Shown here: piece after piece, positions 3,026-7,811 of the stretch
Layout of the letters: each line of letters opens with the position of its first letter
How positions within the stretch are numbered: position 1 is the first letter of the stretch
NCBI RefSeq assembly: GCF_014252055.1
Contig: NZ_CP059208.1
Span: 507,297-571,296 of the forward strand
Length of the DNA: 64,000 nucleotides
Source: Blattabacterium cuenoti
GTDB lineage: Bacteria > Bacteroidota > Bacteroidia > Flavobacteriales > Blattabacteriaceae
Direction: 5' to 3'
Notes under the pieces: generated by a model
What the model saw: the letters and a program-made list of their open reading frames with translations, nothing else
Databases searched by the model: none
Told to the model about the DNA's origin: nothing
Translations under genes and position numbers: made by a program

Positions 3026-4009
3026 CTATTTTCTAGTAATAGATACCTCTATCATTTTTTTTAAAAAAAATGATAGAGGTATCCCAGCAGATTCTAATTG
3101 TTTTGGAAAAATACTTTCTTTTGAAAGTCCTGGTATTGTATTTATTTCTAAAAAGTATGGTTCTCCATTTACTATTATATACTCCGATCTAGACATTCCA
3201 GATAAATTAAAAATTTCGTATACTTTATTAGCAACATTATATATCCTACTTTCTATTTTTGGGTGTAACTTTGCTGGAGTTATTTCGTTAGATTTCCCAG
3301 AATATTTTGATTCAAAATCAAAAAAATCATTTTGACTAATTATCTCTGTTATAGGTAAAACAAAAATTTCTTTGTCATAGGAAAATACTCCTACAGAAAT
3401 TTCTTTTCCATCAAGAAAAGATTCAATAATAATTTCTTTATCTTCTTTAAAAGCTTTTTTTACTGCAGTAGTAAAATTTTTTTCTTCATATACTTTACTT
3501 ATACCTAAACTGGATCCAGATCTGTTAGGTTTTACAAAACATGGTAACCCTATTTCTTTCAAAATTTTTTTTTCGTTAAAAATTTTATTTTTATTTAAGA
3601 AAATAAATTTTGCTGTATTAATTCCAAAATTTTTCAATAAAGTTAGACAATATTTTTTATTAAAAGTTATGTTAGAATGATGAAAATTACCCCCAGTACA
3701 AGGGATCCCTAACAATTGAAAATAAGCTTGTAACATTCCATCTTCTCCTGGAGTTCCATGAATTACGTTAAATACACAGTCAAATTTAATATTTTCTTTT
3801 CCTATTTTTACTGAAAAATCATGTTTATTAATATGATATTCCTTATTTTCATCATTCTTTAAAACCCATCTATCATTAAAAATATAAACCCTATAAAGAT
3901 CAAATTCTGATTTATTTAAGTTATTATAAACAGCTGTTCCACTTTTAATAGAAATAAGAGATTCTTTTGTGTATCCACCCATAACAATAGCAACAGCTAT
4001 TTTTTTCAT
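3026..4009 (-). CDS. ddl: D-alanine--D-alanine ligase
   Basis: ATP-grasp ligase that makes the D-Ala-D-Ala dipeptide for peptidoglycan. The 327-aa protein has the N-terminal MGGYTKESLISIKSG, the substrate loop HGTPGEDGMLQAYFQLLGIP, the ATP-grasp signature CFVKPNRSGSSLGISKV and the C-terminal metal/ATP site EINTIPGLS. The length is slightly short but complete. It is divergent from the PASTA-protein gene across 43 bases; this pairing with PASTA and RluD genes is common in flavobacteria. Its product is used by MurF at 31970-33292. The last codons contain a 42-bp perfect palindrome, described separately. Confidence 0.95.
   Translation of the reverse strand: MKKIAVAIVMGGYTKESLISIKSGTAVYNNLNKSEFDLYRVYIFNDRWVLKNDENKEYHINKHDFSVKIGKENIKFDCVFNVIHGTPGEDGMLQAYFQLLGIPCTGGNFHHSNITFNKKYCLTLLKNFGINTAKFIFLNKNKIFNEKKILKEIGLPCFVKPNRSGSSLGISKVYEEKNFTTAVKKAFKEDKEIIIESFLDGKEISVGVFSYDKEIFVLPITEIISQNDFFDFESKYSGKSNEITPAKLHPKIESRIYNVANKVYEIFNLSGMSRSEYIIVNGEPYFLEINTIPGLSKESIFPKQLESAGIPLSFFLKKMIEVSITRK
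3042..3083. repeat. 42-bp perfect palindrome in the 3' end of ddl
   Basis: Bases 3042-3062 (GATACCTCTATCA followed by T8) are the exact reverse complement of 3063-3083 (A8 followed by TGATAGAGGTATC). The centre falls at the T8/A8 junction, so there is no spacer. The palindrome is wholly inside the last 20 codons of ddl, encoding part of IPLSFFLKKMIEV. Transcripts from either strand could form a 13-bp mixed-sequence stem capped by A:U pairs. It sits between the convergent feo and ddl genes, so a bidirectional transcription-end or RNA-stability role is plausible. No clean U-tract follows, so terminator function is uncertain. Confidence 0.7.
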
Positions 4010-4052: not shown

Positions 4053-5267
4053 ATGAATTACTCAAAATATATATTAATTTTCATTATTAATTTATTAGCA
4101 GCTATATACCTTTTGTATAAGGTTACTCAATTAGCACTAAAATGGGTCGATGTTTACACAAAACATGGTTCTTATGTTGAAATTCCGAATTTACGCTATT
4201 TAACATTATCAAAATCTATTTCTATCTTGAATAGATTAGGATTGAAATATGATATAGATAAATCATATTATGATCCATATTTAGAAAATAATAAAATTAT
4301 TTCTTTTTTTCCAGGAGCTGGATCTCATGTAAAACAAGGAAGATTTATTTACATAAAAATAAATATAAAACCTAATAAATATTGTAATATTTTACCAGAT
4401 ATTATGAATAAAAACAAAGATATAGCTATAAAACTACTACATAAAAATAATATTATAATTAAAGAAATAAGATATATAGATGATATAAATAAAGATAAAA
4501 TTATAAAAATATTTTATAATAATAAACCTATTACATATGGATATATCTTTTGTCCAAAGAATAATTTGGATGGAATTACTTTAATAATAGGGAAAAGTAT
4601 ACAAAAAAATAACTTTATTATTCCAAATGTTATTGGAATGTCACTAAAAACAGCAATTTCAACCTTAAAAAATAAATTTTTTAATATTATTAATTTTTAT
4701 TATGACTATCCAAATTCAAATGAATCTGCAAAAGTATATCGACAAAGTCCTTCTCCTGGAAAAACTCATAATAAAAATCAAACTATTGATCTTTGGTTAT
4801 CTAATTTTTATTCCACGAAGAAAGAGATAGAGACAGATTCCACGAAGAAAGAGATAGAGACAGATTCTACGAAGAAAGAGATAGAGAAAGATTCTACGAA
4901 GAAAGAGATAGAGACAGATTCTACGAAGAAAGAGATAGAGACAGATTCTACGAAGAAAGAGATAGAGACAGATTCTACGAAGAAAGAGGTGAAGAAAGGA
5001 GCTACGAAGAAAGAGGAGAAGAAAGAGGCCACGAAGGAAGCGGTGAAGAAAGATGATACGAAGAAAGAGGTGAAGAAAGATGCTACGAAGAAAGAGGTGA
5101 AGAAAGATGCTACGAAGAAAGAGATGAAGAAAGATGCTACGAAGAAAGAGATGAAGAAAGATGCTACGAAGAAAGAGATGAAGAAAGATGATACGAAGAA
5201 AGAGATGAAGAAAGATGCTACGAAGAAAGAGATGAAGAAAAACTTTTTTAATTCATTGAATAAATAA
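4053..5267 (+). CDS. PASTA-domain membrane protein with Lys/Glu repeat tail
   Basis: Single-pass membrane protein with extracytoplasmic PASTA domains, which in other bacteria bind peptidoglycan stem peptides. An N-terminal helix (about residues 5-25) is followed by three PASTA-like units beginning EIPNLRYLTLSKSISIL, NILPDIMNKNKDIAIKLL and FIIPNVIGMSLKTAISTL. The last 150 or so residues are a 16-unit nonapeptide repeat rich in Lys, Glu and Thr. There is no kinase domain, so it is not a PASTA kinase. It lies between divergent ddl and downstream rluD, a neighbourhood typical of flavobacteria, which suggests an envelope role. The repeat tail is unusual for this family and its function is unknown. 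Confidence 0.82.
   Translation: MNYSKYILIFIINLLAAIYLLYKVTQLALKWVDVYTKHGSYVEIPNLRYLTLSKSISILNRLGLKYDIDKSYYDPYLENNKIISFFPGAGSHVKQGRFIYIKINIKPNKYCNILPDIMNKNKDIAIKLLHKNNIIIKEIRYIDDINKDKIIKIFYNNKPITYGYIFCPKNNLDGITLIIGKSIQKNNFIIPNVIGMSLKTAISTLKNKFFNIINFYYDYPNSNESAKVYRQSPSPGKTHNKNQTIDLWLSNFYSTKKEIETDSTKKEIETDSTKKEIEKDSTKKEIETDSTKKEIETDSTKKEIETDSTKKEVKKGATKKEEKKEATKEAVKKDDTKKEVKKDATKKEVKKDATKKEMKKDATKKEMKKDATKKEMKKDDTKKEMKKDATKKEMKKNFFNSLNK
4812..5243 (+). repeat. 27-bp coding minisatellite, 16 units
   Basis: Sixteen in-frame 27-bp units encode nonapeptides. The first six read STKKEIETD (one has EIEKD); the next three are diverged (STKKEVKKG, ATKKEEKKE, ATKEAVKKD); the last seven are xTKKEVKKD or xTKKEMKKD, the final one ending in N. 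The two outer blocks are nearly identical internally, which points to recent expansion or homogenisation. The + strand is almost all purine apart from ACG and GAT/GCT. It uses ACG, AAG and GAG codons that are uncommon in neighbouring genes. The opposite strand is also open over part of the array, but that is a by-product of the repeat. Confidence 0.95.
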
Positions 5268-5274
5268 TGAAAAA

Positions 5275-6326
5275 ATGAAGAATAAAAAAATAAAAATAGT
5301 AGTCGATAAAAATGAAAGAGAAATACGTATTGATAAATTCTTGGTGAAAGAAATACAAAATATTAGTAGAAATCAAATACAAAAAGTTTTCAATTCAGGA
5401 AAAATACTAGTAAACAAAAAAGTTATAAATAGAAAAAATCATAAAGTAAAACCTCTAGATTCTATTGAACTAGAAATAGAAATAGAACCATTACGTAATC
5501 ATATTATTAATCTAGAATATAAAAATATTTTAGAAGAAAAAATGGATCTAAATATTGTTTATGAAGATGAAGATCTTATTATAATTAATAAACCTGCGGG
5601 AATAGTAGTACATCCTGCTTATGGCAATAATCAAGGTACCTTGATTAATGGAATTAAATATTACTTAAAAAAAAAAAATTGAAAATTAATCTATATAGAT
5701 GTGGTTTAATTCATAGATTAGATAAATATACATCAGGTTTATTAGTTTTAGCAAAAAATGAATCTTCACAAAAATATTTATCAGAACAATTTCATAAAAA
5801 AACTATTAAAAGAAAATATATAGCTTTAATATGGGGAAATCTAAATCTAGAAAAAGGGGTTATAAGTGGATTTATAGGTAGAGATCCAAATAACAGAAAA
5901 AGAATGACTATATATAACAATAAAAATTGTAATATAAATAAAGGAAAATTATCTATAACTCATTATAAAGTATTAGAAAGATTCAAATATATAACGTATA
6001 TATCTTGTAAATTAGAAACAGGAAGAACACATCAAATAAGAACTCATTTTAAATATATAGGACATCCATTATTTAATGATTCAGTATATGGAGGTAATAA
6101 AATTTTTTTCAAGAGAAAATTATCTAAAAAAAATATAGATTTTTTTAATGTTTGTTTAAATATATTACAAAGACAAGCATTACATGCTGTTTCTATTTCT
6201 TTCATACATCCAAAAAATGGAATTTTTCATTTTTCTATTCCTATTCCTAAAGATTTTAAAATAGTACTTTCTATGTGTAGAGATCAATTCCATGATTATA
6301 ATAATGTTCCATGTAACAACATATAA
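5275..6326 (+). pseudogene. rluD: RluD-family 23S rRNA pseudouridine synthase, split by a frameshift at an A12 run
   Basis: Two adjacent frames together make one RluD-family enzyme, which converts uridines of 23S rRNA helix 69 to pseudouridine. The first part (5275-5682) has the S4 RNA-binding domain (RIDKFLVKEIQNISRNQIQK) and the catalytic-domain start INKPAGIVVHP. The second (from 5679) has the catalytic Asp motif HRLDKYTSGLLVLAKN, then GRTHQIRTHFKYIGHPLFND. The break falls exactly at twelve A's (5667-5678). Adding one A or removing two restores a single frame. Either this is a decaying gene, or RNA-polymerase slippage on the A-run yields some full-length protein. Both halves are otherwise intact, which favours partial rescue. 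It overlaps convergent mgtE by 31 bases. Confidence 0.85.
5667..5678 (+). repeat. A12 homopolymer at the rluD frameshift
   Basis: Twelve consecutive A's join the two halves of rluD. Upstream codons run in the 5275 frame and meet TGA at 5680-5682. Downstream codons resume in the frame of 5679. A gain of one A (or loss of two) makes the gene continuous, so the tract is both the likely mutation site and a candidate slippage site. Confidence 0.9.
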
Positions 6327-7743: not shown

Positions 7744-7811
7744 AAAAAAAATGGAATATAACTTTCAAGAAATAGAAAAAAAATGGAATATAACTTTCAA
7801 GAAATAGAAAA
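7744..7811 (+). repeat. 32-bp tandem duplication over the leuS start
   Basis: The segment beginning ATGGAATATAACTTTCAAGA occurs twice, at 7751 and 7783, with 29 identical bases after each ATG and a shared A7 before it. The period, 32, is not a multiple of three. Translation from the first ATG reads MEYNFQEIEKKWNITFKK and stops at TAG, while the second ATG gives full-length LeuS. The upstream copy therefore creates an 18-codon decoy frame overlapping the true start. Confidence 0.9.

Follow-up and report, generated by a model that had tools for sequence, protein, structure and literature searches.

The 64,000-nucleotide stretch of Blattabacterium cuenoti DNA analysed here (the window) belongs to a single-contig genome of 622,023 bp, whose closest relative among the genomes compared is B. 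cuenoti ECTONUhan. A gene encoding a PASTA-domain protein lies between ddl (3026–4009, opposite strand) and rluD, two genes that flank it in all 36 orthologous loci checked. The whole protein matches PF03793 in two stretches with 85.3 bits (E = 2.7e-24, curated cut-off 23.2), and hydropathy windows reveal one hydrophobic segment, at the N terminus. In having two domains over the cut-off and an N-terminal membrane helix it resembles other PASTA-domain proteins, but it differs from them in its lineage-specific repeat tail, which is no part of the PASTA definition. Neither a kinase nor a transpeptidase domain was found in it. Because the only membrane helix is N-terminal, a periplasmic location is expected for the tail, where contact with the host is unlikely. 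The coordinates of the gene and its parts are shown in Table 1. In the neighbouring rluD (5275–6326), 12 consecutive A (5667–5678) divide the gene into two ORFs, and this run is likely to be a frameshift or slippage site. A perfect 32-nt duplication (2.1 copies, 7744–7811) lies over the start of a leucyl-tRNA-synthetase-like ORF at 7783.

Table 1. Features of the PASTA gene and its repeat array in the window
Feature	Position	Strand	Basis
PASTA-protein gene, 404 aa: N-terminal membrane helix, two PASTA domains, repeat tail	4053..5267	+	ORF; PF03793 in two stretches; ortholog search
Predicted membrane helix, about residues 7–29	4071..4139	+	Hydropathy windows >1.6 start at residues 3–11 only
PASTA domain 1	4176..4361	+	PF03793, 32.3 bits vs 23.2 cut-off
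PASTA domain 2	4617..4805	+	PF03793, 47.2 bits
Coding minisatellite, 27 nt x 15.8	4815..5240	+	TRF score 586; unit list
Block A: six near-identical TKKEIE(T/K)DS units	4815..4976	+	Unit list
Three diverged units between blocks: TKKEVKKGA, TKKEEKKEA, TKEAVKKDD	4977..5057	+	Unit list
Block B: 6.8 TKKE(V/M)KKD(A/D) units	5058..5240	+	Unit list
Non-repeat end NFFNSLNK and stop codon	5241..5267	+	Sequence

The array (93% match by TRF) is by far the strongest repeat of the window, the second-best scoring 136. Its units stand head to tail and in frame within the ORF, and their length falls within the range of coding minisatellites (about 10–100 nt). The sequence-only reading had described some 16 nonapeptides in two homogeneous blocks around diverged units, and both TRF and the unit list bear this out; its description of the coding strand as nearly all purine went too far, the measured purine content being 80%. 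The GC content of the array is 39%, compared with 21% in the PASTA part. A genome search detected no second copy of the array DNA elsewhere in the window genome. A weak Pfam match to Borrelia P83/100 (PF05262), confined to tail residues 247–387, was rejected as membership of that family: it reached 22.5 bits against a cut-off of 33.6 and reflects Lys/Glu composition only.

The codons ACG, AAG and GAG, singled out from the sequence as atypical, are all strongly enriched in the array relative to eight neighbouring genes. Lys is encoded by AAG at 26 of 52 positions (28/426 in the neighbours), Glu by GAG at 23 of 24 (18/219), and Thr by ACG at 16 of 21 (5/160). Fisher p values range from about 1e-14 to 5e-20, inflated by the non-independence of the repeat copies. 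The contrast is most simply explained as a property of the founder unit that was amplified along with the array.

The comparison took in the PASTA gene of 47 other Blattabacterium genomes, one genome per species, with arrays counted at a TRF score of at least 100. Window included, 27 of the 48 orthologues carry an array in the C-terminal tail. Periods range from 12 to 63 nt (units of 4–21 residues) and are all multiples of three. The units are mostly unrelated between lineages, examples being GEEKK x18, KKPEE x18, IKEKEEK x11, NEKKDLK x15, KNKDV x39, GNTKNKTQ x34, LDANKSYGKKSKFNK x21, KNYGSSIIKQKEKKL x21, and KKQTEKKDF and its variant x28 plus a gap. With units and copy numbers differing among the carriers, the arrays behave as a VNTR between lineages. 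Tails span 6 to 541 residues, the shorter ones including lengths of 6, 20 and 27, and in genome G017 the PASTA gene has been lost from between ddl and rluD. The sister ECTONUhan, with 75% identity in the PASTA part, lacks an array in its tail, and units within each block of the window array are almost identical; both observations support the earlier proposal of recent array expansion or conversion. Identical repeats in distant strains had been named as the finding that would speak against it, and the opposite was found, with units and lengths unrelated from lineage to lineage.

A tree of 48 taxa was built from three neighbouring genes (Ddl, the PASTA core, and RluD). On this tree, in which several deep branches are long, array presence and absence require at least 13 changes, and 19 unit types, assigned by hand, require 22. 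Sister genomes often differ in array presence. A 14-residue duplication is apparently common to one clade (G016, G023, G028, G030, G089, G146, and G227), so not every array is independent.

We consider it very unlikely that faulty assembly accounts in part for the array or for its length. N gaps do fall inside the arrays of G033, G003, G015, G004, G008, G174, and G198, which means that short reads had trouble there, and copy numbers in these genomes may be collapsed or gapped. Nevertheless, the window array contains no N, unique substitutions tell its units apart, and comparable arrays turn up in many genomes that were assembled separately, which limits the doubt to copy numbers. An apparent PASTA-RluD fusion in G174 (a 786-residue open frame) was discarded as a likely artefact, since it spans an N gap of arbitrary size with the array beyond it read in another frame; an apparent array past the stop codon in G008 is an N-gap artefact of the same kind.

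Sampled stretches amounting to 864 kb of Blattabacterium sequence served as background. Outside the PASTA gene they contained only one array with a TRF score of at least 200, at the C terminus of an HU-like protein in G026 (L053, 17944–18354), which ends in 5.1 copies of a 9-residue unit. This unit, TDSVKKNVP, copies the protein's own conserved end (FTELVKKNVP in relatives) and so shows birth in situ from a local founder. HU tails carry an array in one of 31 cases. Charged, low-hydrophobic tails of at least 30 residues were found in 22 of 725 sampled ORFs, 16 of them being the PASTA gene. FtsH was used as a control, and arrays in its charged tails led us to reject the PASTA tail as the sole site of this kind: 9 of 37 FtsH tails have arrays, a count that includes seven tails chosen for unusual length, and short arrays are present in 4 of the 30 that were not so chosen. 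The longest FtsH arrays comprise 42 units of 9 residues (G017) and 22 units of 10 residues (G250). The PASTA tail is thus the most frequent repeat site found but not a unique one. Five of the FtsH-like C-terminal arrays are large and mutually unrelated, with units of 9 residues in L187 (G017), 10 in L188 (G250), 9 in L189 (G034), 18 in L190 (G020), and 9 in L193 (G021). G017, with its large FtsH array, is also the genome that lost the PASTA gene.

That the repeat is an old family trait, or an import, and seems new only through degradation in relatives is highly improbable. The shared 14-residue duplication and the strong codon contrast speak for such a history. Against it, sisters differ in units and periods, many sister genomes lack arrays, and the outgroup flavobacterial tails examined show none (20 inspected by eye and 4 more also by TRF). 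An imported or mobile origin was rejected in particular, the array DNA being single-copy in the genome and the HU unit having arisen from local sequence.

Comparison of the units provides a view of selection on the tail. Units differ from one another by 23 synonymous and 66 nonsynonymous distinct single-base variants, against 20.9 and 63.6 expected under a neutral model with a ts:tv ratio of 3. The model also expects 4.5 stops, but none could be counted, as the reading was confined to open frames. There is no avoidance of changes to hydrophobic residues (7 observed, 8.5 expected), and variable columns are spread evenly over the three codon positions (26/28/32). The unit sequence fits neutral drift. 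Selection could still act on frame and on bulk composition, given the in-frame periods and the hydrophilic character of the tails overall. Of the two roles suggested earlier for the charged tail, neutral expansion gains from the substitution test and from tails as short as 6 residues, whereas binding to cell wall or host molecules found no support.

A signal of a different kind comes from the codons. With each consensus unit counted once, 18 of 113 Lys/Glu codons end in G, compared with 6.2 expected from PASTA-core usage (binomial p = 4e-5), a test that is not fully independent because some units come from related tails. The longest A runs in consensus units are also shorter than in synonymously resampled units (5.4 versus 6.4, Wilcoxon p = 0.007). 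The window, G022, and G008 drive this. Units rich in AAA and GAA form poly-A runs prone to frameshift, so surviving arrays may be those in which the runs are broken; the adjacent rluD is interrupted at its A12 run. G-ending codons are favoured across arrays, perhaps for breaking such runs, a suggestion we put forward less firmly; chance in the founder units is the alternative account.

These data also bear on the possibility, which we regard as unlikely, that the tail is a functional charged periplasmic spacer or brush of variable length, making for example electrostatic contact with peptidoglycan. Its composition rather than its sequence would be selected, and repeat births would be favoured for their Lys/Glu-rich bulk. 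Consistent with such a role, tails are hydrophilic and charged in nearly all lineages although their units differ, every period preserves the frame, the gene adjoins ddl and encodes PASTA domains, and the codons that break A runs are enriched as expected if frame matters. It fits poorly with the shortest tails, with a net charge per residue that ranges from −0.18 to +0.24 (tails over 6 residues), with the tolerance of hydrophobic changes, with loss of the gene in G017, and with the similar behaviour of FtsH, which has another role.

The reading we favour, with a probability of roughly 0.7, is that the window array is one lineage's case of recurrent, largely neutral repeat birth in a permissive charged C terminus. 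The PASTA protein ends in an unconstrained, hydrophilic, Lys/Glu-rich tail, probably disordered and periplasmic. Slippage during replication, or unequal recombination, may copy local stretches of its A/G-rich DNA, and a duplicated segment could then expand into an in-frame minisatellite. Arrays would later disappear, give way to others or be seeded afresh from different segments, leaving lineages with different units; the frame would be maintained and the residues of the units would drift neutrally. The window array probably grew from a 9-residue founder once its lineage and that of ECTONUhan had parted, becoming homogenised in two blocks; the unusual codons presumably arrived with that founder unit. 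We infer that the repeats have little or no function. Loss of RecA or MutS was rejected as the cause of the arrays, recA and mutS both being present in the genome.

Two observations count against largely neutral birth. Every array keeps the frame and remains hydrophilic, as would also fit selection on bulk composition, and arrays are far commoner in the PASTA tail than in those of FtsH or HU, a difference that a permissive site may not by itself account for. It is conceivable, though doubtful, that the PASTA C terminus, and to a lesser degree that of FtsH, is a true hotspot of repeat birth owing to a specific DNA or protein feature and under selection for bulk charged length, at which new low-complexity tails for the same job would evolve repeatedly from unrelated sequence.

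Genomes of obligate endosymbionts are usually portrayed as shrinking and poor in repeats. In Plasmodium-type antigens, orthologues bear unrelated, species-specific repeats at one position. The PASTA tails share this pattern but are bacterial, probably periplasmic, and show no sign of immune-driven selection. The Wolbachia ANK genes contain coding minisatellites (intragenic VNTRs) of folded ankyrin repeats that vary among strains (PMC3287509). They are alike in being in-frame tandem arrays that expand and contract inside insect-endosymbiont genes; unlike them, the Blattabacterium units are low-complexity, arise anew in different lineages, and are known here from one genome per species. Among the open-access papers searched, we found none that joins Blattabacterium with PASTA or with minisatellites. 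Coding minisatellites are already known as a kind; what makes this case interesting is their recurrent turnover across the genus. In-frame minisatellites acquired repeatedly at one site within one genus offer a natural series in which to measure how coding repeats are born, homogenised and lost, and to ask whether disordered tails evolve neutrally under weak selection. As a practical warning, array lengths recorded in several assemblies are unreliable because the N gaps fall within exactly these arrays. A period of 27 nt (9 residues) recurs in several seemingly unrelated PASTA, FtsH, and HU arrays (L004–L040, L187–L193), a recurrence noticed post hoc.
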